IMG/VR virus record: IMGVR_UViG_3300010354_000399
Span: 1 to 29,844 of that record
Origin: a virus
DNA length: 29,844 bases
Strand: one strand, 5' to 3'
The position numbers were made by a program, and so were the translations under genes. Of the stretch, positions 11,254-27,517 are shown piece after piece; position 1 is the stretch's first letter; each line of letters opens with the position of its first letter. Below the pieces are notes generated by a model. That model saw only the letters and a list, made by a program, of their open reading frames with translations, made no database searches and was not told the DNA's origin.

Positions 11254-11795
11254 GTTAATGTAAAATCAAAATTAATTACGCATCGTTTGGTTGTAGTAGG
11301 ATTACTACTGCTATGATATTCTTTTCCATTAAAAAATACAATACGATTTTTTTTAGGACTTATTCTTCTAGTTATTGTTCCTGCGTCTGGTCCAGTGAAA
11401 AAGAATGTATCGCCGTCGGTATCATTTACATAATACAATGCCACATAATGATCAAAGTCTAAATCTATATGTGCTGTATTATGAAACTTTCTATGTAGTA
11501 AAGGTAGTTGTAAAAACAATCTACCTAGATGTACTTTAGCATCAGATTGTATGCCTGCTTTGTCTAAGGCAGTGAATAGTAAAAATAAAAATAGTGTTGA
11601 GTGTGATTCGCTACTATTTCTCATTGAGTCTAAAAAAACATGCCCAAAAGCCATAGTTTTATTGTATTCCTCATCTGATTTAGTTATATCGTCTAAGTAT
11701 CTCCATGGGAATATAGGACTAAAAACATAATCTTCTATTCGATCTGCTATTTGCCTAGGCAACGCATTATCGATTATGAGCGGTTCATTAAACAT
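11250..11795 (-). CDS. 2OG-Fe(II) oxygenase behind a tRNA-like leader
   Basis: 181 aa. TAHIDLDFDHYVALYYVND supplies the HxD metal pair. IVFFNGKEYHSSSNPTTTKRCVINFDF supplies the distal His and the 2OG-binding Arg in the final strands. Together with DTFFF these give a double-stranded beta-helix. Same subgroup as 24486-25037 (LFDGHTYHNSSSQTDTVSRIAINF). The substrate is unknown; close coupling to a GT4 suggests hydroxyl formation before glycosylation, which is inference. No Shine-Dalgarno sequence; the ATG is 6 nt after the CCA of the RNA at 11802-11909. Confidence 0.83.
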   Translation of the reverse strand: MFNEPLIIDNALPRQIADRIEDYVFSPIFPWRYLDDITKSDEEYNKTMAFGHVFLDSMRNSSESHSTLFLFLLFTALDKAGIQSDAKVHLGRLFLQLPLLHRKFHNTAHIDLDFDHYVALYYVNDTDGDTFFFTGPDAGTITRRISPKKNRIVFFNGKEYHSSSNPTTTKRCVINFDFTLT

Positions 11796-11801
11796 GGATA
11801 T

Positions 11802-11909
11802 TGGTGCAGTCGGTAGGCTTCGAACCTACAAAGGCGATGTCTAAGACGTTGCCCCGTCCCTCAAACTCATTAGTTATGTTGGAGGTCTTCCAGTTCCCGT
11901 CACGACTGC
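11802..11909 (-). ncRNA. tRNA-like RNA with encoded CCA and abnormal anticodon region
   Basis: 108 nt on the minus strand. Acceptor GCAGTCG / CGACTGC is a perfect 7-bp stem followed by ACCA. The T arm is perfect (GTAGG TTCGAAG CCTAC). A D-loop-like GGAACTGGAAGA and a variable-arm-like hairpin (GACG/CGTC around GGGCAA) suggest a class II (Leu/Ser-type) body. The anticodon region does not fold normally: the best stem (CCAAC/GTTTG, one mismatch) leaves an 11-nt loop, and about 15 nt are extra before the T stem. Predicted +1 of its promoter is its first base. It may be a tRNA mimic rather than a decoding tRNA. Confidence 0.7.
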
Positions 11910-11915
11910 TTTGTA

Positions 11916-11944
11916 AGCATAACACAAAATATTTAAACAAGCAA
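11916..11944 (-). promoter_or_regulatory. Promoter whose +1 is base 1 of the tRNA-like RNA
   Basis: Minus strand: TTGCTT (11944-11939), 17 bp, TATGCT (11921-11916), with a TGT extended -10. Predicted +1 is 11909, the first acceptor base of the tRNA-like RNA, so no 5' trimming by RNase P would be needed. Confidence 0.65.
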
Positions 11945-11948
11945 GTCA

Positions 11949-12383
11949 TTAATAAACCTTTACCACGTCGATTCCTGATTTTTTTAAAAAATTAATCCCA
12001 CTATCATCTCTATAGTTTTCTCTGAAATATAAACGACGAATCCCGGATTGATAAATTAGCTTGGCACAGTCTACACAAGGACTGTGCGTTACGAATAGGT
12101 CAGCTCTATCGCCGCTGTCATTAGATTTAGCCAACTTGGCAATTGCGTTCGACTCAGCATGAAGTACTTCTGGTTTAGTTTTTAGTGTGTAGGCACCATC
12201 ATGAACATTCCATATTTTATCTTCACACGTATTATCCCAACCAGCAGGCATGCCGTTGTAACCTATGGATATAATGCGATCATCTTTTACAACAATAGCT
12301 CCTACTTTTAACCTTTGGGCATGACTCAGATCTGCTACACGGGCAGCAACATCCATATAAAACTGAATAAATTTACTTTTCAT
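11949..12383 (-). CDS. Deoxycytidylate (dCMP) deaminase
   Basis: 144 aa. Zinc and catalytic motifs are complete: VLHAESNAI (His75, catalytic Glu77) and SPCVDCAKLI (Cys103, Cys106). VGAIVVKDDRIISIGYNGMP is the usual N-terminal signature. It converts dCMP to dUMP for thymidylate synthesis, as the T4 cd gene product does. The length is close to compact phage members, without the extra allosteric insert of T4 Cd. Its ATG overlaps the previous stop (ATGA). Downstream lies the promoter of the tRNA-like RNA. Confidence 0.92.
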   Translation of the reverse strand: MKSKFIQFYMDVAARVADLSHAQRLKVGAIVVKDDRIISIGYNGMPAGWDNTCEDKIWNVHDGAYTLKTKPEVLHAESNAIAKLAKSNDSGDRADLFVTHSPCVDCAKLIYQSGIRRLYFRENYRDDSGINFLKKSGIDVVKVY

Positions 12384-12622
12384 TGTCTTAGTTTTACATT
12401 TAATACAAAGTTTTCTACAATTAACTTGCCCATACTTGCTAAAAACATTTTTGTTTGATCTTCTTGTGTGAACTTAGTCCATTCTGTATTGTATTTTTCA
12501 ACTAAACATGAAACCAATAGGTCAGTTGCGTTTTGTTCGTCTATAGACAACATTCCCCAATCTATGGGATCTTCGGTTTCCATTTCATTTATTAAGTCTA
12601 GTATTTGATCTTTTTGTATCAT
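12380..12622 (-). CDS. Small acidic hypothetical protein
   Basis: 80 aa, helical and acidic, unrecognised (MIQKDQILDLINEMETEDPIDWGML). It overlaps both neighbours by 4 nt (ATGA on each side), which is strong support for translation. No catalytic motif, signal or membrane segment. Confidence 0.7.
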   Translation of the reverse strand: MIQKDQILDLINEMETEDPIDWGMLSIDEQNATDLLVSCLVEKYNTEWTKFTQEDQTKMFLASMGKLIVENFVLNVKLRQ

Positions 12623-13404
12623 TTATCGTATTCGTCTCCGTTATGAGAATAGTATTTTTTCTCTGGATCAAATCTTTCAAATAATTCATAACACGGCTCG
12701 TTAGGTAATACACGCTTACCTACAAAATATTCGCCTATATGGTTAACTAAATTTTTACCTTCTTGTGTTTTTAAACAGCTAGACAACAGTCCTTGTGACT
12801 CTAGCAGTACTTTGCCAATCATACCTTCGTTTGGATTGACTTGCCACCAATTTTCATTAGGATATTTTTCTTTCAAGAATCCTGAATAATCTACTCTAAC
12901 TCTAGAGATTGGATAAAAACTGGCCATTGGGCTGAATAGCACACTGTGCCTAGTATACCTATAATTAATAAATGTCCAGTCAGTCGGTTCAGCTTTCGGT
13001 TCTTCATCGTAGATATACCATTTTTGTCTTTGAAGAACTATTTGGCTTAATACTTGATCTGCGTTTAATAAAAATATAAGGTCGTCTATTTTTATAGGAT
13101 GAAGAATTTCAATATCATCTTCTTGATGATAAACATAGTCATAATCTCTATCTCTAATTAAATTCCAAAATTCTGCCCATGTAGCACTAAGTCCTTGATT
13201 GACAGGATGTAGATATACTTCATTGTATCCGTATAAATTTACCAGCATTTTTATTAATTCATCATTTCTCCCCTTAGGAAAATCATCAAAGAATATACCA
13301 TGAACTTCGTTGTCACCCCAGTTGAGGTGATGTTGAGATTCCAAAGACCTTGTAAGGTATTCTAATCTATTTGTGCTAAAGATAACTTTACAAATTTTTG
13401 CCAT
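12619..13404 (-). CDS. GT2-like glycosyltransferase
   Basis: 261 aa. KVIFSTNRLEYLTRSLES is the N-terminal strand-helix of GT-A enzymes. VHPVNQGLSATWAEFWNL-like context (here LHPVNQGLSATWAEFW) resembles the NxGxxxaxN region of GT2. DYVYHQEDDIEIL supplies the acidic DxD equivalent (about residues 95-97). The C-terminal part is less typical, so donor and acceptor are unknown. It starts at TAATG overlapping the previous stop. Part of a glycosyl-transfer/oxygenase operon. Confidence 0.78.
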   Translation of the reverse strand: MAKICKVIFSTNRLEYLTRSLESQHHLNWGDNEVHGIFFDDFPKGRNDELIKMLVNLYGYNEVYLHPVNQGLSATWAEFWNLIRDRDYDYVYHQEDDIEILHPIKIDDLIFLLNADQVLSQIVLQRQKWYIYDEEPKAEPTDWTFINYRYTRHSVLFSPMASFYPISRVRVDYSGFLKEKYPNENWWQVNPNEGMIGKVLLESQGLLSSCLKTQEGKNLVNHIGEYFVGKRVLPNEPCYELFERFDPEKKYYSHNGDEYDK

Positions 13405-13970: not shown

Positions 13971-13971
13971 A

Positions 13972-14733
13972 TCAGTACCTTTTAAAATAACCATTGACTC
14001 CGTCCCATCCTAGGACTTTCCAATTGGTTTCTATAATGTCATGTTGAAATGGTCTAGTTAAAAAATAGCTAAGTGTTTCTATATCAAAGTGTTTCATATC
14101 AGGATGATTAAGCATTGTAGATATTGCTGTAAAAAAATCTACATATTGTGAGTAGTAACCTCTGCCCCATCCGAATAGGACAGAACAATATTGTCTAAGT
14201 CTATTGTCTCCTTGCTCTTTCCTTAAATCAACTTTGCTGTAGTTCCATTTGTCATCCCATTCGAAATCAAAATATTTTTTGTAAAAGATCTTGTTGGTAA
14301 AGATCTCATTAAACAAAGTGATATCAAATGAACTATCTATAAGATAACGTCCGCTCATTTTAAAGAAGTAATCATATTCTTCTAACTGTTTACGCCATTG
14401 TCTCAGGAAGGTAGCTAGAATTAATGTTTCACAATGACTTTTGTTAATGTGTGTATTAACACGTTCGTGTATTTCCGGAAATTGTTCTTTCACACTAACA
14501 AATCTGACCTTCGGGGACCAACTTAGTACATCTTTGTATTGTTCTGAATTAGGACTTATATCTATAATGAATATAGTAGTATCATTGTCGCTGGCTAAGT
14601 CTAGGCTAACAATTGTGCTTATTGTTTGTCTTAATCGTTCCTCTTTGTTAAAGTGTGAACGAACATGGCTATATGTCAAGGGAAAGTTATTATTGACTTC
14701 TATTGCGCTGGTTACCAAAAAGGCTTTTTTCAT
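13972..14733 (-). CDS. Putative glycosyltransferase-like protein
   Basis: 253 aa. The N-terminus AFLVTSAIEVNNNFPLTYS and the segment DYFFKMSGRYLIDSSF (about residues 119-134) resemble GT-A-like capsule/fucosyl-type enzymes with a KxSGRYxL motif. FGWGRGYYSQYVDFF may form the acceptor side. No canonical DxD is visible. The position between a GT4 and an oxygenase supports a role in glycan tailoring. The ATG overlaps the GT4 stop (ATGA). Family assignment is moderate. Confidence 0.62.
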   Translation of the reverse strand: MKKAFLVTSAIEVNNNFPLTYSHVRSHFNKEERLRQTISTIVSLDLASDNDTTIFIIDISPNSEQYKDVLSWSPKVRFVSVKEQFPEIHERVNTHINKSHCETLILATFLRQWRKQLEEYDYFFKMSGRYLIDSSFDITLFNEIFTNKIFYKKYFDFEWDDKWNYSKVDLRKEQGDNRLRQYCSVLFGWGRGYYSQYVDFFTAISTMLNHPDMKHFDIETLSYFLTRPFQHDIIETNWKVLGWDGVNGYFKRY

Positions 14734-15791
14734 TTTCTGTAAAAGTTTAGATCGTTTATTTTTTGAAGATAGTTATGAAGTTTTTCATGTACTACCTTAT
14801 CTTCGAAGTGGGTAACTGCATATTGTAGACAGTCTATTGGTTTTATTTGGTCAATGTTTTTTATAGCATTTACAAAATCTCTGAAATCTCTACAACGGTA
14901 CCCAGTCAGTCCATGAACATTAGTATCTACAAATCCGCCCCAATCTGTTGTAATTGCGGGAGTGCCGCTCATTAAGGCTTCTGCTACCATATTACCAAAC
15001 GGTTCTATATAATAAGTAGCGCCAATAATACCACGTGCCCGGCTTAGCAAATGTTTACGAGTTTGGACATCTACTATGCCTAAATATTCTACGTGATCTG
15101 GAATAACCTTATACCCCATGCTTTGTAAACTGCCAGGGCCTGCTATTTTAAGTTTGACGCCGGCCTCCTGTGTGGCCTGGATAGCCAGATGTATACCTTT
15201 TTTTTCAATTACCCTGCCTAGACATACAAAGTAATCTTCCTTTTTATCATAAAAATCAAATTCACTCTGGCTTATAGCATTAGGTATAACAGCGTCGAAC
15301 CAACTGGGATTCATAAGCATATCGCGCTGCCCATAAAACATATGCATGTGAGCATATGAAGTAAAAACACGATACGGTGCCCATACTGCTCTGTTATCGT
15401 ATCCTATACTAGCTTCAACTGCTTTTAATTCTGGATTAGCATCGCAAGCCCCTTTATTATCTATACCATGAAAACAGATTATAATATCTCCAGGACGTTT
15501 TCGTTTAGCAATTTCTATACCTGCGTTGAGATTGAATCTTTGCGTATTAGGTCCTCTGTCTGTTGTTTCGTTTTGATGACCGGGGTATTCGGGAGGCAGG
15601 TACGTTAGTTCTGGATTACAAACAACGTCTTCACATTCGACTTCACTGCCCACAGTTCCGTAGTGAATACAATTCCAACCATATGACATCATGTGGTTTA
15701 TGAATTTGTAAGTTAGTATGGGAAATGGATCGACTCTATTTTTAGGAGTTGTGGCTGCATAAGGACATGAAAGAATGTGTAATGTAGTCAT
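14730..15791 (-). CDS. Family 4 glycosyltransferase (GT-B), paralog of 10108-11253
   Basis: 353 aa. YFVCLGRVIEKKGIHLAIQA, GVKLKIAGPG and EPFGNMVAE (E-x7-E) followed by LMSGTPAITTDWGGFVD define the donor-binding half. The order and spacing of motifs match the GT4 at 10108-11253, including the GYRCRDF/GYRCRTF segment, so the two arose by duplication. The predicted transcript begins 1 nt before the ATG, so it appears leaderless. A terminator for the upstream ncRNA lies directly before the promoter. Acceptor unknown. Confidence 0.9.
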   Translation of the reverse strand: MTTLHILSCPYAATTPKNRVDPFPILTYKFINHMMSYGWNCIHYGTVGSEVECEDVVCNPELTYLPPEYPGHQNETTDRGPNTQRFNLNAGIEIAKRKRPGDIIICFHGIDNKGACDANPELKAVEASIGYDNRAVWAPYRVFTSYAHMHMFYGQRDMLMNPSWFDAVIPNAISQSEFDFYDKKEDYFVCLGRVIEKKGIHLAIQATQEAGVKLKIAGPGSLQSMGYKVIPDHVEYLGIVDVQTRKHLLSRARGIIGATYYIEPFGNMVAEALMSGTPAITTDWGGFVDTNVHGLTGYRCRDFRDFVNAIKNIDQIKPIDCLQYAVTHFEDKVVHEKLHNYLQKINDLNFYRK

Positions 15792-15798
15792 ATTATTA

Positions 15799-15826
15799 AT
15801 TATACTAGATTATAGGCAAAGGTCAA
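15799..15826 (-). promoter_or_regulatory. Promoter for the leaderless GT4 gene, overlapping a terminator
   Basis: Minus strand: TTGACC (15826-15821), 16-bp spacer, TATAAT (15804-15799). Predicted +1 is 15792, one base before the ATG. The -35 shares its first bases with the T tract of the ncRNA terminator, so termination and re-initiation are fused. Confidence 0.72.
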
Positions 15827-15850
15827 AAAAATAGGCCCCAAAGGACCTAT
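15825..15850 (-). terminator. Rho-independent terminator of the structured ncRNA
   Basis: Minus-strand RNA stem AUAGGUCC / GGGCCUAU (8 bp with one G-U), UUUG loop, then seven T. The G-U pair becomes an A-C mismatch on the other strand, so the terminator is minus-strand specific. Confidence 0.85.
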
Positions 15851-15985: not shown

Positions 15986-15990
15986 TTTAT

Positions 15991-17814: not shown

Positions 17815-17815
17815 A

Positions 17816-19207
17816 TTATAACACAGAGTAGCGTGGCGTGTCAACAGTTGCTAGCATAATAGCCTCAGGAGTCATAGTAGCACCGCTAAGGACGCCTTTC
17901 ATAACACTGGGACTAAAGCCGCTCACTAGAGCCGTTCCTCGCTGATCAAATTTTACCGGAACATTGTCAGTGGCACTAAGGTTCCAAAAAACGATGTTAG
18001 GCATAGCGTAACCAGCAGCCTCATATTTACGCTGAATCATTTCATGTGCTGAATCATCAAACTTAGCACATTGATCAAACTGCATGTCGCTTAGGATTAA
18101 CAGAGTCTTTGGCATGTCTGCCTCAGAGACTGATCCTTCCTTAGCGATACGCAGAATCTCATCAAATGCCTTGTGTAGATTGGTATTCATTCCCCAATCA
18201 CTACGATTCATTTGAATAAGTTTTTGACTCAACGAACCTTTTAAAACTTCTGCCTTGGTATTGGCACTGAAGTTTAAGAATACATCTTTAAAAGCACTGC
18301 GATTTTTATCCGCACAATACAAACCTAAACTTACAGCAATATCTAAACAGGTCAGGTTTTTATTACGTCCTGCTGGAGTTTCCATACTTCCACTTACATC
18401 AACTAAAGGAATCACACTATGGTCACCGATGTAATTGGGCAGAGCAGCCCACTGAGCATCTGCTACCACATGGTCTCCGCCACTTCTGATGGTCTTAATC
18501 ACATCGTATGGATACACAGCACTGGCATTTACCTTGTCCTCACCTTTGATAAGGCGTTCTTTATAGGCTGCGTATGCTTCTGGAGCACGACGACCAAAGG
18601 CCTTGTTGTAGCGAGCCGCAGCCAACGAAGGTAGTTTACCAAATTCAATGGAGTTCCATTCCTGGGCACACATTTTGGTTTCTACCACATTAGTTAGGCC
18701 TACTAACAATTTACGATAGCCTTTTGGAGTCAACCCCATAAACTGACGAAGTTCTACTGCTTGGCTACCTTTACGAGGCATCCATTTAGCACATAAACCC
18801 TGTCCATCACGCAGAGCATTTTGGATAAAGGTATGAGCCGCACCTTTGAAGCGTGGAGTTTGGAAAATCATGAGATCATCCCAACGACCAAACTCTGGCA
18901 CAAAGGTTAACACACGATCCAACATATCAGGATGTTGGCTTTCCAGATGAAGGAGAATGTCTCGAAATAACTGACGTTCACCTGCGCCACCACGAACATC
19001 ACGCGACCATAGAGCAATTTTCATCGCCATGTCTGAATCTTCTTGAAAGGCACGTTCAAAATCTCCAACAATGTTTTTACCACGACTAGCACCAATCTTG
19101 AAGAATAGGTCCACAAGAGCATTACCGCTGTGAGATAGAGCCTTCATGTTATTTTCAGTGCGGGCTTCTGCGGGTTGAGTTTGAACTGCTTGAGCAAAGG
19201 TAGTCAT
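17816..19207 (-). CDS. TROVE/Ro60-like RNA-binding protein with vWA domain
   Basis: 463 aa from the ATG at 19207 (MTTFAQAVQTQ), chosen over an upstream GTG because AAAGGAG precedes it. Residues about 20-255 are HEAT-like TROVE repeats (WSRDVRGGAGERQLFRDIL, FVPEFGRWDDLM, KWMPRKG). PLVDVSGSMETPAG (Asp270, Ser272, Ser274) is the MIDAS of a C-terminal vWA domain. Ro/Rsr proteins form a ring that binds misfolded RNAs and Y RNAs; bacterial Rsr works with PNPase and YrlA RNAs. It is transcribed from a perfect promoter with a foldable leader. Confidence 0.88.
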   Translation of the reverse strand: MTTFAQAVQTQPAEARTENNMKALSHSGNALVDLFFKIGASRGKNIVGDFERAFQEDSDMAMKIALWSRDVRGGAGERQLFRDILLHLESQHPDMLDRVLTFVPEFGRWDDLMIFQTPRFKGAAHTFIQNALRDGQGLCAKWMPRKGSQAVELRQFMGLTPKGYRKLLVGLTNVVETKMCAQEWNSIEFGKLPSLAAARYNKAFGRRAPEAYAAYKERLIKGEDKVNASAVYPYDVIKTIRSGGDHVVADAQWAALPNYIGDHSVIPLVDVSGSMETPAGRNKNLTCLDIAVSLGLYCADKNRSAFKDVFLNFSANTKAEVLKGSLSQKLIQMNRSDWGMNTNLHKAFDEILRIAKEGSVSEADMPKTLLILSDMQFDQCAKFDDSAHEMIQRKYEAAGYAMPNIVFWNLSATDNVPVKFDQRGTALVSGFSPSVMKGVLSGATMTPEAIMLATVDTPRYSVL

Positions 19208-19237
19208 TTTTCTTCTCCTTTCTGTGTGTAAAATGAC

Positions 19238-19294
19238 AGGATGCACACTGTGGTTTCAATTACGAGTTGAAGATAAAGTTGCTGTAGGCATCCT
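19238..19294 (-). promoter_or_regulatory. Foldable 5' leader of the TROVE mRNA
   Basis: Within the roughly 100-nt leader, AGGATGC (19294-19288) pairs perfectly with GCATCCT (19244-19238). Inside is a hairpin TTCAA/TTGAA with a 7-nt loop (19271-19255). It lies between +1 and the RBS, so it is suited to autoregulation by the TROVE protein. The 9-mer TAGGATGCC at its 5' side recurs in the ncRNA at 15872-15864. Confidence 0.55.
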
Positions 19295-19626: not shown

Positions 19627-20223
19627 TTATTTAGTAAATCTTATTTCAATAACTATACAGATTCTCGGGATTTCCGAATTGTGCGTAGTGATCCCATGCC
19701 AGATTCCAGGTGGATGACATAACAAAGTTCCCGGTTTAACAGGAATTTCAAATTTGTCTTTATCATCAAAATGTTCTAATGTTTTATTTCCGTGATCTTC
19801 ACTGATAGTTTCTGGGTTAAGAAACACGATGTTTCCAGAATTTTCAGGAACTTGATAATAAAATATGCTGACAAAATTTATATCATTTTTATGTTTATGG
19901 ATGCCCCCGGCTGAACCAAGGTACATTCTATTCGCCCAAGCTCGTTTAATTTCAATATTGTCAACGGGTTCTCCTATTACCTTTCCAATTTTTTGGTAAT
20001 GAGGCAGAAGAATGTTCCACAGCTTATCAAAATCTGTTAAGTGTGTTAATCCCTTAGGAAATCTTACTGTACCTTCTGCTTTGCCGTTTTGACTAGGATC
20101 CTTGGGCGATGGTAAACTTAGAAATCTATCTAAGTCTTTGTAAAATGGTGTGTTCGGTCCTACACTGTCAAAAAGTATATTTTCTTCAAGATAATATGTA
20201 TTTCCGAACACAGTGTTGAACAT
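19627..20223 (-). CDS. 2OG oxygenase-like protein
   Basis: 198 aa. AWANRMYLGSAGGIHKHKNDINFVSIFYYQVPENSG gives the proximal His pair (HKHKND) and a beta-helix core. GTLLCHPPGIWHGITTHNSEIPRICIVIEI gives the distal His and Arg. This matches the small phage 2OG/Fe(II) fold, though the metal triad (HxH rather than HxD) should be treated with care. It begins 1 nt after the metallophosphoesterase stop. Confidence 0.72.
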   Translation of the reverse strand: MFNTVFGNTYYLEENILFDSVGPNTPFYKDLDRFLSLPSPKDPSQNGKAEGTVRFPKGLTHLTDFDKLWNILLPHYQKIGKVIGEPVDNIEIKRAWANRMYLGSAGGIHKHKNDINFVSIFYYQVPENSGNIVFLNPETISEDHGNKTLEHFDDKDKFEIPVKPGTLLCHPPGIWHGITTHNSEIPRICIVIEIRFTK

Positions 20224-20224
20224 G

Positions 20225-20830
20225 TCACATTACCACAACAGAATTGCCATCTCTAAAACCAATATGTCCGCCTTCGTTAACTATTCTTACGTTAACTTCT
20301 TCGAGACTAATAGGAGCAAAGCCAGTCTGTTCAACGCAGACACAGTGATATCTGTTATCAATTTCATTGCTATACTTGAGTTCTCCCGTTTTCACATTCA
20401 CACCCGCAATCTTCATCACACGATTAGCATGAAGGTGTCCGTGAACATTGCAGCCAAACCTAGCAAGGCTTTCTGGATGAACGGGTACATGGCTGAATAT
20501 CATACCATTCATAACGTGGTATCCACGAACATCCCTAAAGTATTTGGTATAGTCTTCTAGTTTGAAGATATCGTGGTTACCACGGATAAGAACCTTGTCG
20601 CCATTGAGCCTACCAAGAACGTGGAGAAACTTACGATTGATTACCACGTCTCCAAGGTGATAGACCTTATCATTGGGACGAACACGTTCGTTCCAGGCTT
20701 TGACCATGAACTCGTCCATTTCTTCAGCACAGCTAAAGGGACGAAGTGGGCTACCGTCTTTTCTTGTGAAAACAGTGCAGGTCTTTTCGTGACCAAAATG
20801 TGTGTCACTAATTAAAAATGTTGCTGGCAT
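20225..20830 (-). CDS. Calcineurin-like metallophosphoesterase
   Basis: 201 aa. All family blocks are present in order: ISDTHFGH (Asp9, His11), HLGDVVI (Asp61), IRGNHD (Asn85, His86), FSHVPVH (His114) and VHGHLH (His132, His134). The two-metal centre hydrolyses phosphoesters; small phage members resemble YfcE-type phosphodiesterases and may act on nucleotides or RNA ends. The size is typical. AGGAAAG lies upstream of the ATG. Confidence 0.92.
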   Translation of the reverse strand: MPATFLISDTHFGHEKTCTVFTRKDGSPLRPFSCAEEMDEFMVKAWNERVRPNDKVYHLGDVVINRKFLHVLGRLNGDKVLIRGNHDIFKLEDYTKYFRDVRGYHVMNGMIFSHVPVHPESLARFGCNVHGHLHANRVMKIAGVNVKTGELKYSNEIDNRYHCVCVEQTGFAPISLEEVNVRIVNEGGHIGFRDGNSVVVM

Positions 20831-20848
20831 AATATACTTCTTTCCTAA

Positions 20849-21094
20849 TCATAATGTTGTTGAACCAGCGTGTTTTAAAATATACATACTTACAATAGAT
20901 CCTTCTAGTTTAACAACATCCTTAGGATATTTGTTCCAAGTTAAAGGTTGCCATTTTTTAGGCGAATCGACTTTTTTCACTTTAACCATTTTTGGATTTA
21001 GTTTTACTATCACTCCTACTTCTAATGTATTGTGGTTAGGCCATACTACAAAATCACCTTCTGTTAGATCTTGTCCTAGTTTATCTTTAAACAT
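20849..21094 (-). CDS. Small beta-rich protein with leaderless start
   Basis: 81 aa. LTEGDFVVWPNHNTLEVGVIVKLNPKMVKVKKV suggests a small SH3/KOW-like barrel; no family is certain. A strong promoter sits immediately upstream and its predicted +1 is within 1 nt of this ATG, with no room for a Shine-Dalgarno sequence. Confidence 0.72.
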   Translation of the reverse strand: MFKDKLGQDLTEGDFVVWPNHNTLEVGVIVKLNPKMVKVKKVDSPKKWQPLTWNKYPKDVVKLEGSIVSMYILKHAGSTTL

Positions 21095-21099
21095 ATGTA

Positions 21100-21128
21100 A
21101 TTATAGCAGATATTTGATAACAAGTCAA
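21100..21128 (-). promoter_or_regulatory. Promoter placing +1 at the ATG of the 81-aa gene
   Basis: Minus strand: TTGACT (21128-21123), 17 bp, TATAAT (21105-21100). Predicted +1 is 21093-21094, and the ATG begins at 21094. Confidence 0.8.
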
Positions 21129-21134
21129 TGCTAA

Positions 21135-21992
21135 TTAACTCAAATACCTATTTTGTAAAAATTTAGCTAATTCACAGGCGATCTCTTTGTAACCATCTAT
21201 AGTTGGATGGCTGTCGTTAGTAATATATTTGGCTGGCCAATCCAATGATTCATAATGTCTGTAAAAATGAGTCCAATCTACTAAACCTTCTAATCCATCT
21301 AATTTAACAAGTCTTTCAACCATCGCTCTGTATTCAGTATACCTATGTAGATAAATGCTCCAATCAAATTTTTTATATAATGGATTGGCATAATCTTGTA
21401 AGAAATCTTCTACACTATAATTTGAATTCTCACTATACTGTCCATAAGCGTTAGCAACTGTTAATTTAAAATTTTTACCTTGGAAAAATTCTTGGAACTC
21501 TAATAAAGCCAACATAGTTTCTGCGGCTACTGATTCTTCTGTACATAATTTTTCTGCGTAGAATCTATACAGTGGTTCATAGTCATCGCCATGCCCGGGT
21601 ATTGGCCAAATAGTTTTCCATTTATAATGCTGGTAGTTGCCTAACTTGTCGAATGGTTTGGTATTAATAAAGCTGAAACGTTCAAAACCCGATAAAAGCA
21701 ATATAGCATACCCTTCACTGTTTTGCCAGTCTACGTCGGCAAAATATAATTGTTTAACGGCTGCTCTATTACCTATACCTTTAATACCTAAATTAATTGA
21801 TTGATAATCTTGGAAATAATCTCTAGTTAATACGTTGACCCAATTATTTTCTATCTCATAATGGCGACGATCTTGATCACAAATCATACCCGACTCTCTC
21901 ACTCGTCCTTTCCATTTACGCCAAAAATCTTCTGGATAGGCTCCTTCTCCCTGCGTCCAACTACATCCTAATCCTATTATAAGTTTTGTCAT
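21135..21992 (-). CDS. SGNH/GDSL-like hydrolase
   Basis: 285 aa. LIIGLGCSWTQGEG carries the GxS block (Ser11 as nucleophile candidate). INLGIKGIGNRAAVKQ gives the Gly/Asn oxyanion block. The C-terminal NDSHPTIDGYKEIACELAKFL matches the DxxHP catalytic Asp/His block. Such enzymes deacylate or acylate glycans and lipids. The phage form could edit O-acyl groups on a glycan. It starts 6 nt after the preceding oxygenase stop without a clear RBS, probably by coupling. Confidence 0.78.
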   Translation of the reverse strand: MTKLIIGLGCSWTQGEGAYPEDFWRKWKGRVRESGMICDQDRRHYEIENNWVNVLTRDYFQDYQSINLGIKGIGNRAAVKQLYFADVDWQNSEGYAILLLSGFERFSFINTKPFDKLGNYQHYKWKTIWPIPGHGDDYEPLYRFYAEKLCTEESVAAETMLALLEFQEFFQGKNFKLTVANAYGQYSENSNYSVEDFLQDYANPLYKKFDWSIYLHRYTEYRAMVERLVKLDGLEGLVDWTHFYRHYESLDWPAKYITNDSHPTIDGYKEIACELAKFLQNRYLS

Positions 21993-21998
21993 GGTTAA

Positions 21999-22622
21999 CT
22001 AACATGTTTTTTTAAAAGTTTCAATAGGCGATGCTGTTATTTTCAATCTCAATCCGCTATTAACTTCTGGTAAATGTCCTGTTAGAAATGTGTTAAAACT
22101 AATACTATATCTAATAATGTTTTCTTTTAATATTTCTGTTTCATGAAATAATGTACTAGGAAACAATATCAACTTACCTTTTTCTGGTTTTATGGTTAAT
22201 TTTAAGTTTCTATCTGCAGTTAATTTGGCAAATCTTAAAAATAAACATTGTTTAAACCACGGATTAGGATGTGTGAATATTGTTTTAGATGATTCGCAGT
22301 CAGTCAAATAAAATATTCCGCTAACGATACTATTAGGGTGGTGATGAAAATGATGTTGTTGATTTAGTTTAGTTTTGTTCGCCCATGAATCAACAATTGT
22401 CAAATCTACTGTCTCTGAGTAATACTTGTCTCTAATAATTGCAAGACATTTGTTAAACCATGTAAACATTTCTTTATCGTAGTATGGGTTGACACTGATA
22501 ACATTTATGTCATTCTTGTCATATTCCATTTCCTCTACATGTTCTAATACTTTATTAACTTTTTCTAAATCCGGATATTTAAATTCATATAAGGGAAACC
22601 CTAAGTCTAATATTTCTTTCAC
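21999..22622 (-). CDS. 2OG-Fe(II) oxygenase (2OG-FeII_Oxy_5-like)
   Basis: 207 aa from a GTG start at 22622; GAGG stands 5 nt upstream. SWANKTKLNQQHHFHHHPNSIVSGIFYL is the W-x-N...HxH-P-S-SG block typical of this phage family. ILFPSTLFHETEI...RYSISFNTF gives the distal His and the Arg. Third of three oxygenases in tandem. Substrate unknown. Confidence 0.85.
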   Translation of the reverse strand: MKEILDLGFPLYEFKYPDLEKVNKVLEHVEEMEYDKNDINVISVNPYYDKEMFTWFNKCLAIIRDKYYSETVDLTIVDSWANKTKLNQQHHFHHHPNSIVSGIFYLTDCESSKTIFTHPNPWFKQCLFLRFAKLTADRNLKLTIKPEKGKLILFPSTLFHETEILKENIIRYSISFNTFLTGHLPEVNSGLRLKITASPIETFKKTC

Positions 22623-22639
22623 TTCATCCTCGTAAAAAA

Positions 22640-23197
22640 TTATTTACATTTAACAAATTCGTTAGGTACAAAAGTAAGATTACCTGCTAATATACTACGA
22701 TTTGTATCGCCCAGCATGACTGGTACCCTATGTTTAATCATAGAATCAAATACTAACAACATACCCGGTTGGGGGGAAATATCTAGTACTCCTTCAAACT
22801 TTAATGGACTACTAGAATTATCTGCTTCCACATAATATACGAATGAATACCTAGATCCAGTGTGATCGTGTTGATCAGCATAGCTATTTTTTGTATATAT
22901 AGCAGTCCAAAAATCTGATATTTCTAATCTGGCGTGTGGATTTTCTGGAACTATACTATTAACAGCCTTAGTAATAATTTCTAACTCTATATCAAATACA
23001 TCAGTCATAAGATGAGTTTTATATGAACTGTGCCAAGTTTTTAGGTTAGATACATTGGATTCGGGATAGGTTTTTTGAAATGTGTAAATTTTTTGACGTA
23101 AACTTGTATTATCGATGTCGTTTACAATAACAGACCATATGGTAAAGTACAGTCTTCTATTAGCTGTTACTGTATGATGGTTTAGCATCTTATACAT
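22640..23197 (-). CDS. 2OG-Fe(II) oxygenase (2OG-FeII_Oxy_5-like)
   Basis: 185 aa. FWTAIYTKNSYADQHDHTGSRYSFVYYV carries the proximal HxH/D motif (HDH). GMLLVFDSMIKHRVPVMLGDTNRSILAGNLTF carries the distal His and Arg. It overlaps the upstream oxygenase by 8 nt; an alternative Met4 starts just past that stop. Second of three tandem paralogs. Confidence 0.83.
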   Translation of the reverse strand: MYKMLNHHTVTANRRLYFTIWSVIVNDIDNTSLRQKIYTFQKTYPESNVSNLKTWHSSYKTHLMTDVFDIELEIITKAVNSIVPENPHARLEISDFWTAIYTKNSYADQHDHTGSRYSFVYYVEADNSSSPLKFEGVLDISPQPGMLLVFDSMIKHRVPVMLGDTNRSILAGNLTFVPNEFVKCK

Positions 23198-23798
23198 TAT
23201 TAATTTGGTATGTATTAAAACTTAGCACTATTCTTTCCTCACTTTTATTAACTTCTAGTCCTCCATGCTTAAGCCAACTAGGAAATAAAAATAAATCACC
23301 AATATTTGGTTTTAAAAAATAGTAGGAAAAATTATAAATGTTTTCGTGTCCCGGTTTACATTCAATAAATTCAATAAATGGATTTGGGTTATCAAACACA
23401 ATACTACTACTATTTTTATCAACTTTTAAGTACAGAGCTCCTGACATTAAAGATGCAGCATGAACATGTCCTCTTAACGAAGAATTAGGTTTTTGAACGT
23501 TTATCCAAGAATTGCTAATCTTAAATTCATTACAGCCATATGTATTGGAATAATGATTTAATCTGTCTGTTAATTTACTTTTTATGTCAAGAAAAGAGTC
23601 AATTAAATCTAAGTCTTGGATTCCTAATAGAGATGCGTTATAAGATGAACCACCCTGACTATTATCAATCAGAGCATTATGCTGACTTAATCTATTCACA
23701 TCTAAGTTTTTTAATATTAATTCACATTCTGATTTTGTTAGAAAATTTTCTGTAACTTGGACTAGAATAGGGAATAAGTCAAAGTTTTTTGTTATCAT
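23190..23798 (-). CDS. 2OG-Fe(II) oxygenase (2OG-FeII_Oxy_5-like)
   Basis: 202 aa. SWINVQKPNSSLRGHVHAASLMSGALYL is the family block (HVH). GDLFLFPSWLKHGGLEV...RIVLSFNTY supplies the distal His and 2OG-binding Arg. The N-terminal 70 residues are helical (FLTKSECELILKNLD). First of three in tandem. No Shine-Dalgarno sequence; the ATG is 5 nt after the CCA of a small hairpin at 23804-23855. Confidence 0.86.
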   Translation of the reverse strand: MITKNFDLFPILVQVTENFLTKSECELILKNLDVNRLSQHNALIDNSQGGSSYNASLLGIQDLDLIDSFLDIKSKLTDRLNHYSNTYGCNEFKISNSWINVQKPNSSLRGHVHAASLMSGALYLKVDKNSSSIVFDNPNPFIEFIECKPGHENIYNFSYYFLKPNIGDLFLFPSWLKHGGLEVNKSEERIVLSFNTYQINNV

Positions 23799-23803
23799 AT
23801 TAA

Positions 23804-23855
23804 TGGTTAACAGTCTCTAGTGTAGTGTTAGTGCTCACGACAAGACTGTGCTAAC
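23804..23855 (-). other. Short acceptor-like hairpin ending in CCA
   Basis: On the minus strand ACAGTC (23849-23844) pairs exactly with GACTGT, and flanking GTTA with TAAC, leaving a 2-nt bulge. The 3' strand continues to ACCA, 5 nt before the ATG of the oxygenase at 23798. The position copies that of the four tRNA/tRNA-like leaders, but no T or anticodon arm is visible. The GNAT-like stop codon lies in its 5' strand. Confidence 0.35.
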
Positions 23856-24291
23856 TAGAAATTACATATTCGTAATTTATAGTATCCGCATTCTCACGTA
23901 GGATGACGGCACCATTATTTAAATGAAAGCGTCTGGCCATTTCTGTTTTTGGACTAAGAGTTACGAATCTTTTAACATTTTTATTATTATTTTTTATATG
24001 ATTGACAGTGTCTAAAAGCAATTCTCTGCCTTTCCCTGCTCTGTAACTCCAAATAGTATAAAAAATAGCGTTGCCGGGCTCGTCAGTGTTTTCAAATAGC
24101 TGATCTTCGTCTTCAGGAATTTTATTTTGAAAACTAACACAGGTAATAGCAGTGGCTATATCTAATTCTCTGTTCAGGTATATTCCTCTGTTTTTACCAA
24201 TCCGTTGTTCTTGAGGAATATGGGGACGAATGGGGTCTTCCCTTATAAGTTTTAGAAAGTTGTCAGTGATATCCCTAATAATATAAAGCAT
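23851..24291 (-). CDS. GNAT-like acetyltransferase
   Basis: 146 aa. IFYTIWSYRAGKGRELLLDTVNHIK resembles the acetyl-CoA-binding strand/helix of GNAT proteins (RxGxGxxLL, here with AGKGREL). FVTLSPKTEMARRFHLNNGAVILRENADTINYEY matches the final motif B. Similar proteins occur in marine phages. The substrate may be an amine on a sugar, protein or base. It follows the 64-aa gene by 3 nt and ends inside the CCA hairpin. Confidence 0.72.
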   Translation of the reverse strand: MLYIIRDITDNFLKLIREDPIRPHIPQEQRIGKNRGIYLNRELDIATAITCVSFQNKIPEDEDQLFENTDEPGNAIFYTIWSYRAGKGRELLLDTVNHIKNNNKNVKRFVTLSPKTEMARRFHLNNGAVILRENADTINYEYVISS

Positions 24292-24294
24292 TAT

Positions 24295-24489
24295 CTATAT
24301 ACTTATACGTAATCTATTTAACTCTTCAGAAGTCAGAAACATTTCATATTTTTTTTGATATTCATTAGGATTTTTCGCGCCTTTCCATTTTGTGTAAAAA
24401 ATAACACTAATTTTTCCTATATCATAAGCAGGAATAGTAGTTTCTATAAATGTTTGATATCCGTCAGTTTCACTAATTAAAATTTTCAT
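24295..24489 (-). CDS. Small hypothetical protein
   Basis: 64 aa, unrecognised (MKILISETDGYQTFIETTIPAYD; C-terminal helix MFLTSEELNRLRISI). Its ATG overlaps the oxygenase stop (ATGA) and the next gene follows after 3 nt, so translation as part of the operon is likely. No signal or catalytic motif. Confidence 0.65.
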   Translation of the reverse strand: MKILISETDGYQTFIETTIPAYDIGKISVIFYTKWKGAKNPNEYQKKYEMFLTSEELNRLRISI

Positions 24490-25037
24490 TTTGGTAATAT
24501 ATTAAAGTTAATTGCTATTCTAGATACTGTATCTGTTTGTGATGAACTATTGTGATAAGTGTGTCCGTCAAATAGTATCATTTTATTTTCTTCAGGGAAT
24601 ATTTCTTTCTGTATGGTCAACGTAGGTTCAACTCCTTCTACAAATTTTTCGTTATAGAATTGTGTCACGCCGTCGCAATTAGTAAAATAAAGTAATGCTG
24701 TGTAGTGAGGTTCTGGGTAATCTACGTGCGGTCTATGATAATGAGTTTTTTCTGTAGCAGTTATCAAGCCTGCTCTCACCCTCAGCACTTTAGCCAATGG
24801 AAAACCTATATCATAACAGAACATGGCTATGGACATAAGACAAAAGTGAGATAATGGTTCTAAAGATACTTGGCCTCGGTCATCGTCTAGAAAAATTACA
24901 TTAGAAAAACTTGATCCATATATATCTTTATCTCCGTCCGTTGTCTCGCCAAATGCCCAAGCAAAATAATTAGATGTTATCTCTTTTTTTATTTTTTCAT
25001 ACAGTACAGGATGAATAGCGTTTGTTTTTACTATCAT
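24486..25037 (-). CDS. 2OG-Fe(II) oxygenase directly after tRNA-Val
   Basis: 183 aa. THYHRPHVDYPEPHYTALLYFTNCDG holds the HxD pair (HVD). MILFDGHTYHNSSSQTDTVSRIAINFN holds the distal His and Arg. Very similar in layout to 11250-11795, so they are paralogs. No Shine-Dalgarno sequence; the ATG is 6 nt after the CCA of tRNA-Val. Confidence 0.87.
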   Translation of the reverse strand: MIVKTNAIHPVLYEKIKKEITSNYFAWAFGETTDGDKDIYGSSFSNVIFLDDDRGQVSLEPLSHFCLMSIAMFCYDIGFPLAKVLRVRAGLITATEKTHYHRPHVDYPEPHYTALLYFTNCDGVTQFYNEKFVEGVEPTLTIQKEIFPEENKMILFDGHTYHNSSSQTDTVSRIAINFNILPK

Positions 25038-25043
25038 AAATTA

Positions 25044-25119
25044 TGGTGGACGGTGAGAGTCTCGAACTCCCGACATTCGCGGTGTAAACGCGACGCTCTT
25101 CCAACTGAGCTAACCGTCC
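25044..25119 (-). tRNA. tRNA-Val (UAC)
   Basis: 76 nt with encoded CCA. Acceptor GGACGGT/ACCGTCC is perfect; the D arm contains TAGCTCAGTTGG, the anticodon loop is TTTACAC (anticodon UAC, reads GUA), and the T arm is GGGAG TTCGAGA CTCTC. Its first G is the last base of the TAG stop of the omega gene, and its CCA is 6 nt before the next ATG. Confidence 0.96.
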
Positions 25120-25355
25120 TATTTAACCTTTCGCAAGTACTCTGGACCTACCAGTTTACATTGTACATCCAGCAATGCGCTAACTGGAGCACATTCGTGT
25201 TCTGTTTTTTCATTTGCTTTATTACGTTTACTAATTTCTCGCGATCTAGCAGCAGCCGCAAGAACTAAGTTAAATCTATTACCATGCATTTGTGCAACGC
25301 ATTGATCAAAATCAATGGTTGTGCCTCTACTTAATTTTACCTTGTTCATCGACAT
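25119..25355 (-). CDS. RNA polymerase omega subunit-like protein
   Basis: 78 aa. GNRFNLVLAAAARSREISKRN (residues 25-45) matches the conserved omega signature NRFxLVLxAAxRARE, preceded by a helix FDQCVAQMH as in RpoZ (VEKIGNRFDLV in E. coli). Bacterial omega chaperones the beta-prime subunit and influences sigma choice and ppGpp response. Length is close to RpoZ (about 70-90). A phage copy could replace host omega and redirect RNA polymerase. The start may be Met1 or Met3, the latter overlapping the previous TGA by 4 nt. It is co-transcribed with tRNA-Val. Confidence 0.8.
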   Translation of the reverse strand: MSMNKVKLSRGTTIDFDQCVAQMHGNRFNLVLAAAARSREISKRNKANEKTEHECAPVSALLDVQCKLVGPEYLRKVK

Positions 25356-25474
25356 TCACCTATAGTTGGATTCCACGCTGTCATACAGACAGGACCTATA
25401 TCAATAAAAATCCCTGCTAATAATAGTATAAAAAATAATGCTATAATAAAATTTTCTGATGTTTGCTTTTTCAT
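25346..25474 (-). CDS. Single-span membrane peptide (42 aa)
   Basis: 42 aa from the ATG at 25474 (MKKQTSENF), preferred over an upstream ATG because AAGGAA stands 8 nt before it. One hydrophobic helix (IIALFFILLLAGIFIDIG) is followed by a short tail with two Cys (VCMTAWNPTIGECR). It may be an inner-membrane peptide with a periplasmic disulphide. It ends inside the omega gene start. Confidence 0.72.
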   Translation of the reverse strand: MKKQTSENFIIALFFILLLAGIFIDIGPVCMTAWNPTIGECR

Positions 25475-25484
25475 AATTATTTCC

Positions 25485-26066
25485 TTAAATTGGAATCCAA
25501 TGATTAAAACCGAAGTGTATTTTTTCTGCTGGAACCATATCAAACGCTATAGTAATACGATCTTCATGGATGTCAGTCCACGGATATGTTCTATGGAAAT
25601 CTCCTGCGCTTTTACTAATAACTATTTGGTTGTTTTTGTTTTCTATATCTATTATCTTTCCATCGTTAAGTTTATATGTTGTAATCGTATTCTCACCGTT
25701 CACACAATAAAAGCCATGATATGCTTCAAATTCAGGTATCCAATGATTATGCCAATCTATAAATTGCTGTTCTTTAAAAATGTTTATCCAACATTGTATG
25801 TAGTATGGTCTATTCGTTTTTTCAATGCTTCTAAATAAGTGTTTTAGTGAAAAGTATAAATCATAAAACCCAGGAAATGGATACATTAATAAATTATAGT
25901 GTTCGTAATATTTGGTTGTTTCAGGTGCTTCTACACTATAACTAGATACAAAATTTGGTATAACTGAATTTTGAACTACATCATTTACTCTATAAACAGA
26001 AGATTTAATTATGTTTAGGTCCAACGCTAGTTGTTCGGTATAAACATAGTTTTCAAATATTTTCAT
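25485..26066 (-). CDS. 2OG oxygenase-like protein directly after tRNA-Thr
   Basis: 193 aa. CWINIFKEQQFIDWHNHWIPEFEAYHGFYCV matches the W-x-N...WHxH block. SAGDFHRTYPWTDIHEDRITIAFDMVP gives the distal His and Arg. N-terminal helices resemble the other members. The first metal pair is HNH rather than HxD, as in the 2OG-FeII_Oxy_5-like group. No Shine-Dalgarno sequence; the ATG is 6 nt after the CCA of tRNA-Thr. Confidence 0.78.
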   Translation of the reverse strand: MKIFENYVYTEQLALDLNIIKSSVYRVNDVVQNSVIPNFVSSYSVEAPETTKYYEHYNLLMYPFPGFYDLYFSLKHLFRSIEKTNRPYYIQCWINIFKEQQFIDWHNHWIPEFEAYHGFYCVNGENTITTYKLNDGKIIDIENKNNQIVISKSAGDFHRTYPWTDIHEDRITIAFDMVPAEKIHFGFNHWIPI

Positions 26067-26072
26067 AGAAAA

Positions 26073-26147
26073 TGGTGCTGAATGTCGGATTCGAACTGAC
26101 GACCTACCGCTTACAAGGCGGTTGCTCTACCACTGAGCTAATTCAGC
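26073..26147 (-). tRNA. tRNA-Thr (UGU)
   Basis: 75 nt with encoded CCA. Acceptor GCTGAAT/ATTCAGC, D arm with TAGCTCAGTGGTAGA, anticodon stem ACCGC/GCGGT with loop CTTGTAA (anticodon UGU, reads ACA), T arm with GTTCGAATC. The predicted transcript begins 2 nt upstream of base 1. Confidence 0.96.
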
Positions 26148-26155
26148 ATATAAAA

Positions 26156-26184
26156 AGTATATAATAATAAGATTGTTGTGTCAA
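26156..26184 (-). promoter_or_regulatory. Promoter of the tRNA-Thr/oxygenase operon
   Basis: Minus strand: TTGACA (26184-26179), 17 bp, TATACT (26161-26156). Predicted +1 is 26149, two bases before the mature tRNA 5' end. Confidence 0.85.
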
Positions 26185-26217
26185 TATTTAATCTAATCAA
26201 TTCGCCCAAATAATATT

Positions 26218-26778
26218 TTACCATAGCCATGAAACAAAACTATATCTTGTTCCCTGTGTAATAGGAGTTACTCTATGAGGAAATAAAAAGTTTGAAGGAA
26301 AAATTAAAATATCACCAGGCATAAAGTTCACTGTTTTATCATTGAATAATATTAAATCTCCACCCGAGTCACTGTTTTGAAGACAGCCTAATATCGAAAG
26401 GATTGGAATACCGCGCCTTGTTCCATCAAATAATGTAGTTATATGATCACAGTGATTCTTCATTTCGGTTCCTACAGTATATTTGTTAAACCTAGGTCGA
26501 ACGATCCCTTCCCATTTACTAAACCAAGAGAAACCTAATTCTTTTTGATACTCGTCTACACAATTAATTATAGCGTCTTTGAGCAAGTTACTGGTAGATG
26601 TATCTACCATAGAAACATAACAGTCAGACTCATTGCTAAATTTTTCCTTTTTAATATTGTCATAATACCAATGTCGTACAAACTCGTTGTTTTCTAATTC
26701 CTGTATTGTTTGCTGACAGGTTGAAGTGTTAAAAGTTTTTTTATACTGTTTAACATAATAATATAAATTAGTGTTCAT
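26218..26778 (-). CDS. Prolyl-4-hydroxylase-like 2OG-Fe(II) oxygenase
   Basis: 186 aa. EMKNHCDHIT supplies HxD (His-Cys-Asp). GIPILSILGCLQNSDSGGDLILF is the central strand pair. GDILIFPSNFLFPHRVTPITQGTRYSFVSW supplies the distal His and the Arg, as in prolyl hydroxylases and PKHD-type proteins. The most canonical oxygenase of the island. The ATG overlaps the preceding stop (ATGA). Confidence 0.88.
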   Translation of the reverse strand: MNTNLYYYVKQYKKTFNTSTCQQTIQELENNEFVRHWYYDNIKKEKFSNESDCYVSMVDTSTSNLLKDAIINCVDEYQKELGFSWFSKWEGIVRPRFNKYTVGTEMKNHCDHITTLFDGTRRGIPILSILGCLQNSDSGGDLILFNDKTVNFMPGDILIFPSNFLFPHRVTPITQGTRYSFVSWLW

Positions 26779-27380
26779 TTAAAAATAATATTACCTGCTA
26801 TGCTTATTCTTAATTCATCTGACGTATAAAAAGGATAAACAGAATGTGGTAGATATGAGGGAAACATTATTAATTTCCCTTCATACGTTTTATCAACATT
26901 AACGGTATGATTTCTAATCATGCCATTTAATTGATTAAAATGAAACATAAATCTAGCATTAGAGCTGACACTGCTAGATATACTGTTTTCTAGGTTATCT
27001 TCGTCAGAAAGTTTGTACGGAATTTTAATCCACAAGACCCAGCTTAGATCAGAATTATGAACATGGATAGGATTAAATTCATGTCGTTTCTGTAAATTTA
27101 CCCACGCATCGTGTTTTAGTATAACACGTTTTGGGTAATTAAAATATTCTCCGTAGCGCAGAGCGAATAATTCTAGAAATGTTTGAAATTCATTCGGTAA
27201 TTCAAATTCATATTCTTTTGATATATGACCTACCAAGTTCTTGTTATATGATTTAGGTAGACTATTAGTAGGATTTAAAATTTGTCTATCAATAGTGAGA
27301 TTAATTGTTTCAAACAATGTGTCAGGTATTCTAGTCTCTAGTATACCAGGATTGTTTAATTTAATTTCTTTATAGTCCAT
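26775..27380 (-). CDS. 2OG-Fe(II) oxygenase directly after a tRNA-like RNA
   Basis: 201 aa. AWVNLQKRHEFNPIHVHNSDLSWVLWI is the W-x-N...HxH-xS block. LIMFPSYLPHSVYPFYTSDELRISIAGNI gives the distal His and Arg. Long N-terminal helical part. No Shine-Dalgarno sequence; the ATG is 5 nt after the CCA of the RNA at 27386-27480. Confidence 0.85.
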   Translation of the reverse strand: MDYKEIKLNNPGILETRIPDTLFETINLTIDRQILNPTNSLPKSYNKNLVGHISKEYEFELPNEFQTFLELFALRYGEYFNYPKRVILKHDAWVNLQKRHEFNPIHVHNSDLSWVLWIKIPYKLSDEDNLENSISSSVSSNARFMFHFNQLNGMIRNHTVNVDKTYEGKLIMFPSYLPHSVYPFYTSDELRISIAGNIIFK

Positions 27381-27385
27381 GATTT

Positions 27386-27480
27386 TGGTAGTAGGTAAAG
27401 GTTACGATCCTTTCCGTTCCAGCCCATCTGACCAGTCTCCAGAGTTTATAAGTCTCCGCCGCACACCAGTGCTACCTACC
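27386..27480 (-). ncRNA. tRNA-like RNA with encoded CCA, atypical fold
   Basis: 95 nt. Acceptor GGTAGGT/ACCTACT (one G-U) plus ACCA; T arm AAAGG ATCGTAA CCTTT is perfect in the stem but has A in place of the first loop T. The D arm would be GCAC/GTGC with only a 4-nt loop. The best anticodon stem CGGAG/CTCTG leaves a 9-nt loop ACTTATAAA, centred on TAT. About 25 nt separate it from the T stem (class II-like). It might be a divergent Ile(UAU) or Tyr-like tRNA, or a tRNA mimic acting as an mRNA leader. Confidence 0.65.
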
Positions 27481-27488
27481 ATATCTTT

Positions 27489-27517
27489 ATTATAAATTAA
27501 TTGCTTCTCTTTGTCAA
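27489..27517 (-). promoter_or_regulatory. Perfect-consensus promoter of the tRNA-like RNA/oxygenase unit
   Basis: Minus strand: TTGACA (27517-27512), 17 bp, TATAAT (27494-27489). Predicted +1 is 27482, two bases before the acceptor stem. It overlaps the end of the halogenase fusion gene. Confidence 0.88.

Follow-up and report, generated by a model that had tools for sequence, protein, structure and literature searches.

Transfer RNAs and a tRNA-like RNA a few nucleotides before oxygenase start codons in uncultured phages: a possible case of tRNA punctuation

The IMG/VR virus record IMGVR_UViG_3300010354_000399 (positions 1 to 29,844, a stretch of 29,844 nucleotides [nt] called the window here) carries four RNA elements that each end just before the start codon of a gene of the 2-oxoglutarate (2OG) oxygenase type. 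All four lie on the minus strand. Their CCA 3' ends (11802, 25044, 26073, and 27386) are separated by 6, 6, 6, and 5 nt from the ATG codons that begin at 11795, 25037, 26066, and 27380, exactly as in the original prediction made for this DNA. The first and second genes (11250..11795, 181 amino acids [aa], and 24486..25037, 183 aa) match phrog_274 strongly and fall below the Pfam cutoff. The third (25485..26066, 193 aa) gave weaker matches (phrog_2696; phrog_81, E = 9e−5), and the fourth (26775..27380, 201 aa) is the only one above the Pfam cutoff (PF13759, E = 1e−12). Pfam and PHROGs together identify three of the four as 2OG oxygenases, and the predicted link between each ATG and such a gene stands, less firmly for the gene at 25485 to 26066. 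The ortholog of gene 1 in the related contig L003 is 90% identical and keeps the 6-nt gap; a scan for relatives using the protein encoded at 24486 to 25037 found none. Five more 2OG genes occur in the window, none of them behind a tRNA, so this family is common here. Eight 2OG-oxygenase-type genes are clustered within 8 kb (19627 to 27380).

Two of the four elements are ordinary tRNAs. ARAGORN and Rfam call element 2 (25044..25119) as tRNA-Val(UAC) and element 3 (26073..26147) as tRNA-Thr(UGU), with RF00005 scores of 64.4 and 74 bits, respectively. Elements 1 and 4 have no RF00005 covariance match above the gathering score, and loose Rfam thresholds gave only chance matches for them. Element 4 (27386..27480) is a divergent class II tRNA-like gene that ARAGORN folds into a 95-nt class II cloverleaf at a relaxed threshold only, with the anticodon shifted in the drawing. 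Alignment by eye makes a divergent tRNA-Ile(UAU) the likeliest identity: element 4 has in common with tRNA-Ile(UAU) genes of related contigs (92 to 94 nt) a long variable arm (V-arm) and the anticodon loop CUUAUAA, whose closing position is unpaired in element 4. AUCGU-type T-loops occur in other tRNAs of this phage group, and a blastn search of element 4 against annotated phages gave no match. The tRNA-Ile(UAU) genes of 92 to 95 nt are found at L009 661-752, L016 1400-1491, L055 968-1059, L120 8029-8122, and window 27386-27480; the loop of their long variable arm, an arm unusual for tRNA-Ile, resembles CAGAU(UA).

Element 1 (11802..11909) is not a tRNA and belongs to a new, previously undescribed family of covarying tRNA-like RNAs (TLRs). 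It has a 7-bp acceptor stem with ACCA, a canonical T-arm, and a long V-arm with the conserved tip GUC-UUA-GAC but no recognizable anticodon arm, and on the strand of the element ARAGORN drew no tRNA, whichever threshold was tried. In IMG/VR, 61 stretches contain the core 17-mer of element 1, and nearly all of them proved to hold a member of one RNA family (besides the window, L003, L005, L011, L012, L014, L016, L039, L059, L068, L089, L100, and L121-L179). The alignment of 14 TLR sequences supports a structure of 23 pairs in which 97.8% of the cells are paired, falling to 35 to 50% in slid controls. Compensatory changes affect 10 pairs and 42 cells, compared with 13.8 cells in shuffled alignments, none of which reached 42 (0 of 500). 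The acceptor stem, ACCA, and T-arm are kept, a variable hairpin with tetraloops or odd loops replaces the anticodon arm, and no anticodon loop was found in the family. The V-arm tip itself covaries (GUC-UUA-GAC, GAC-UUA-GUC, GAC-AUA-GUC, and CCC-UUA-GGG). Members score 74 to 107 bits with the TLR covariance model (element 1, R1, 105.9 bits), compared with at most about 44 bits for ordinary tRNAs. The family had no Rfam match, no blastn hit in the annotated phage collection, and no occurrence of its 21-mer in GTDB genomes; the covariance model did not find it in G013, G014, S-CAM7, S-CRM01, T4, or BUCT-ZZ01. Two other identities of element 1 were rejected: a tmRNA, since ARAGORN reports none, and a tRNA-Leu with an intron or a UAG anticodon, for which the stem is unpaired and the corresponding hairpin varies freely in relatives. 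The four tRNA or tRNA-like genes originally proposed are, then, two real tRNAs, one divergent tRNA-like gene, and one member of a separate RNA family.

The predicted sigma70-type promoters aimed at the 5' ends of three elements were located. They precede element 1 (11916..11944, TTGCTT-17-TATGCT, 8/12), element 3 (26156..26184, TTGACA-17-TATACT, 11/12), and element 4 (27489..27517, TTGACA-17-TATAAT, 12/12), all on the minus strand, and end 6, 8, and 8 nt before the respective RNA; the position of the first is conserved in relatives. tRNA-Val instead touches the gene upstream: the stop codon of a 78-aa open reading frame (ORF; 25119..25355, minus strand) ends on base 1 of the tRNA. This agrees with the overlap first reported for an omega gene, although the match to RNA polymerase omega/Rpb6 is weak and below cutoff (PF01192, E = 6e−4). 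A promoter hidden in the tRNA with its +1 on the ATG was rejected, because a 6-nt spacer would need the last six tRNA bases, NNNCCA, as the −10 box.

None of the four ATGs is preceded by a Shine-Dalgarno (SD) sequence, which the duplex energies with the anti-SD confirm (0.4, 1.2, 0.7, and 2.4 kcal/mol). This part of the original prediction held, but it is not special to tRNA-adjacent genes: just 7 of the 42 window genes reach −5 kcal/mol, and SD-less starts behind tRNAs therefore mean little alone. True starts farther downstream with ribosome-binding motifs, an outcome that the prediction had named as contrary to it, were rejected. The only in-frame downstream start with an SD in the four genes is codon 48 of gene 1, and its use would cost about a quarter of the protein.

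The spacing was measured in a clade set of contigs related to the window through one oxygenase gene, a choice that favors oxygenase-rich regions and not any particular spacing; from IMG sample names, we take these contigs to be mostly of freshwater origin. Each distance is that between the CCA and the first following ATG that opens an ORF of 60 aa or more. ORFs were called mechanically, and several of the loci are related, near-identical ones having been removed. The distances were bimodal, with 15 at 3 to 9 nt (mode, 6), 3 at 10 to 13 nt, and 27 at 14 to 22 nt. The rate at 23 to 40 nt predicts only 2.7 cases at 3 to 9 nt (n = 204 tRNAs). The near class held 16 of 171 tRNAs in the clade and none of 130 in T4, S-CRM01, BUCT-ZZ01, S-CAM7, G002, G013, and G014; it therefore characterizes some members of this phage group and is not general among tRNA-rich phages. 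A random set of 1,334 phage tRNAs has its main peak at 10 to 23 nt and a small bump at 5 to 6 nt. A sharp, universal rule of 5 to 6 nt was not borne out, since the near class spans 3 to 9 nt and many tRNAs of these phages precede SD-led genes at 14 to 22 nt; what recurs in relatives, with other tRNAs and unrelated genes, is a peak of short spacings within variable distances. The arrangement is real, recurrent, and unusual for phages. Near-class spacers are mostly SD-less (AGGA occurs in only three, all 8 to 9 nt long), SD pairing being stronger in the 14- to 22-nt class, and spacers between tRNA and gene are 88% AT, whereas equally long gaps between protein genes are 70% AT.

Adding the promoter-driven TLRs and element 4, and allowing no overlap between the genes chosen, brings the near class to 19 members. 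Fifteen of these are 2OG oxygenases. The family accounts for only 1 of the 25 genes that follow a tRNA at 10 to 30 nt and, among 100 random genes of comparable size, for about 24 at most, so the predicted association of tRNA-adjacent starts with this family is upheld. Among the products of the farther class are omega-like proteins, small proteins, and rotamases. Behind these RNAs one gene is exchanged for another, but the spacing remains short. In four records, the gene 5 to 6 nt behind tRNA-Val(UAC) encodes one of three unrelated types of protein, and TLRs at 5 to 9 nt precede oxygenases of two types and one glycosyltransferase; an identical TLR is followed by an oxygenase at 6 nt in L003 and by a glycosyltransferase at 9 nt in L167. 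In G008 and G009, the tRNAs are set into operons with 0 to 7 nt between ORF and tRNA and 3 to 9 nt between tRNA and the next ORF. In one G008 operon, tRNA-Thr is followed after 6 nt by a 2OG gene, which directly adjoins (0 nt) a tRNA-Gly, and the next gene begins 4 nt later.

The same contigs carry genes whose promoters place the transcription start on the start codon. Among all clade ORFs of at least 80 aa behind strong sigma70-type promoters, the −10 box ends 5 to 8 nt before the ATG in 21 cases (with a sharp peak at 6 nt), in none at 9 to 17 nt, and at 18 to 40 nt in leadered genes. The controls (T4, three cultured cyanophages, G013, and G014) showed 0 to 2 cases each at 5 to 8 nt, apart from G002, which bears a TLR and showed 4. 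About 30 promoter-leaderless genes were listed, including orthologous sets across records. Three are in the window, all on the minus strand: a gene at 20849..21094 (TTGACT-17-TATAAT-5 nt-ATG; promoter 21100-21128), a glycosyltransferase gene at 14730..15791 (TTGACC-16-TATAAT-7 nt-ATG; promoter 15799-15826), and a GTP cyclohydrolase I gene at 6458..7348 (TTGACT-17-TATGCT-6 nt-ATG). These genes support, without proving, that the hosts of the clade translate leaderless messages, and because of them a near-leaderless message fits the biology of these phages. A smaller leaderless peak was seen in unrelated phages, where 18 ORFs of random IMG/VR tRNA-bearing contigs (L185-L463) have a −10 box ending exactly 6 nt before the ATG. 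One window glycosyltransferase is 66 to 70% identical to cyanophage proteins, which is a hint only as to the host.

Set beside the directly observed spacing classes, AT-rich and mostly SD-less spacers, promoter positions, leaderless promoters, 2OG link, and gene swapping, these data make it plausible, though unproven, that tRNAs and one TLR serve as punctuation in part of the phage transcripts. RNA polymerase would initiate on base 1 of the tRNA or TLR or 1 to 2 nt ahead of it, or else would read in from the upstream gene. Host tRNA-processing enzymes would then recognize the fold and cut just 3' of CCA, in the AU-rich spacer of 3 to 9 nt. The downstream product would be an mRNA that begins with a 5'-monophosphate and has no more than a few nucleotides ahead of the AUG. 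This mRNA would be translated by SD-independent, leaderless-type initiation, as apparently happens for about 20 other genes of these phages with a promoter +1 on the AUG. All steps after transcription (excision, the cut site, and translation of the product) we infer from the sequences. In bacteria, RNase E or RNase Z cleaves tRNA precursors a few nucleotides 3' of the CCA, and an mRNA with a leader shorter than 10 nt counts as leaderless (PMC4681348). RNase E prefers A/U-rich sites (PMC3848588), and leaderless translation in Escherichia coli requires a 5' phosphate and works better when the start lies close to the 5' terminus (PMC9031893). A leader of less than about 10 nt with no SD fits the window and near-class sequences if the 5' end is at CCA. 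We give this mechanism an even chance of being correct: of the original proposal, the recurrence in independent relatives and the co-occurring leaderless promoters speak for it, and the universal spacing has fallen away.

Several observations weigh against it. The 3- to 9-nt bin was drawn after the clade data had been seen, and for this reason the P values are exploratory, be it for the excess at 3 to 9 nt (Poisson P = 2e−7), the difference between clade and controls (P = 1e−4), or the spacer composition (P = 7e−6). In the later-examined contigs G037 to G039, just 1 of 12 tRNA-followed genes within 30 nt falls in the 3- to 9-nt class, a 2OG gene 8 nt behind a tRNA-Gly with a 12/12 promoter, and its spacer contains an SD-like AGGA. 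Two G038 genes lie 10 to 11 nt behind tRNAs, and two G039 2OG genes lie 13 to 15 nt behind tRNAs with SD-like spacers. In another phage group, the TLR stands 42 to 45 nt before SD-led genes. Moreover, 2OG genes not behind tRNAs are also tight, 31 of 44 overlapping the upstream gene or sitting 0 to 9 nt from it, and SD-poor (20% vs 39%); the 2OG link is thus in part a trait of these cassettes in general. The tight, SD-poor 2OG genes suit compact packing alone, in which tRNAs would be recombination slots for SD-poor 2OG cassettes that are translated weakly, by readthrough or scanning ribosomes, with no part played by the tRNA. The swapping of genes behind the same tRNA and the tight packing of the whole genome point the same way. 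However, packing behind a protein gene gives translational coupling, whereas packing behind a tRNA gives none, and packing would not account for tRNA spacers more AT-rich than protein-protein gaps, for the minimum near 3 nt and the dip at 10 to 13 nt, or for the co-occurring leaderless promoters. We regard packing alone as possible but on the improbable side.

The original prediction also allowed that the folded tRNA itself recruits ribosomes. The tRNA or TLR would in that case stay on the mRNA as a 5' leader, protecting the 5' end or recruiting ribosomes, and because transcription appears to begin no more than 2 nt from base 1, the fold would indeed form the mRNA 5' end. Yet two of the elements are ordinary tRNAs, which must be released to work, the near class includes tRNAs deep inside operons, and a fold ending 6 nt before the AUG would clash with the 30S subunit. 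We count this idea as not supported and a retained leader as very unlikely.

For element 1, punctuation would take a special form. The TLR would be a tRNA mimic that no longer decodes and is retained as a transcribed tag, complete in itself, for 5' processing: transcription would start on its first base, tRNA enzymes would remove it, and any gene 5 to 9 nt behind would be expressed as a 5'-phosphorylated, near-leaderless mRNA. An ORF does begin 5 to 9 nt past the TLR in the window and four related loci, where the TLR starts the unit as ordinary tRNAs do. This speaks against the view that the element is a small RNA in its own right, functioning independently and only incidentally placed 6 nt before an oxygenase gene. 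Favoring such independence, every TLR member listed has its own promoter (a TATAAT-like box that precedes base 1 by 6 to 7 nt, in most cases accompanied by a TTGAC-like box 16 to 18 nt upstream), 16 of the 38 records tested contain exactly one copy each at family-level scores, the conserved V-arm tip is not needed for processing, and what follows differs greatly, from an ORF at 5 to 45 nt to another tRNA. We think the processing tag improbable and put an independent RNA just short of an even chance; the latter is compatible with the punctuation mechanism. The window also encodes a DUF7788/DUF2828 protein (17816-19246; phrog_850, "RNA-binding protein") that is present in hundreds of cultured phages and is a possible partner of the TLR.

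Other features were noted. RNA polymerase omega (Rpb6) is matched by 4 of the 25 genes located 10 to 30 nt behind tRNAs, which suggests a conserved tRNA-omega link. Small ORFs lie 18 to 22 nt past tRNA-Arg (L092:4168-4362, L103:7853-8095, L105:9200-9394, and similar). In the window, a single ORF (27497-29749) fuses a sugar-binding glycosyltransferase domain to a tryptophan halogenase, and a gene at 929-1624 encodes a Bax inhibitor-1 family membrane protein in this phage contig.

We found no description of tRNA punctuation in phages in the open-access literature searched. If punctuation is confirmed, a bacterial virus would have arrived by evolution at the mitochondrial way of making mRNA 5' ends. 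The supply of tRNA would be coupled to the expression of accessory oxygenases, and these genes would no longer need a ribosome-binding site; tRNA maturation, leaderless translation, and the exchange of gene cassettes would be linked in phages, and sharp 5'-monophosphate ends are predicted. The TLR is, in itself, a concrete new noncoding RNA that occurs once per record in many uncultured phages.

Known systems resemble parts of this arrangement. T4 rnaC and rnaD (species 1 and 2) are, like the TLR, small stable RNAs encoded by a phage beside tRNAs, but the TLR model finds only ordinary tRNAs there (at most 37 bits), and TLRs have their own promoter and the full acceptor, T-arm, and CCA. In the system of bacterial Y RNAs (YrlA) and Ro60, the RNAs have a tRNA-mimicking fold, as does the TLR, and the window's DUF2828/DUF7788 protein, RNA-binding according to PHROGs, adds to the likeness as a candidate partner of the TLR. 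Unlike YrlA, the TLR has a complete 7-bp acceptor and an encoded CCA, and it lacks an Rfam match. Leaderless mRNAs (lambda cI, prophage regulators, and those of Actinobacteria) share the −10 box 5 to 8 nt before the AUG and the missing SD; their known 5' end comes from the transcription start, whereas that of the phage mRNAs is proposed to come from the cut at the tRNA 3' end. In mitochondrial tRNA punctuation, known from animals, tRNAs directly flank protein genes as they do here, and excision would give mRNAs with little or no leader. The tRNA abuts the protein gene on its 3' side, with phage gaps of 3 to 9 nt in the window and relatives; abutment upstream is seen for the window tRNA-Val and several G008 and G009 tRNAs (0 to 7 nt) but not for tRNAs with their own promoter. 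Unlike mitochondria, the phages punctuate only some genes, at a spacing of 3 to 9 nt; many units are initiated from a sigma70-type promoter of their own, and elsewhere in these contigs tRNAs precede SD-led genes.

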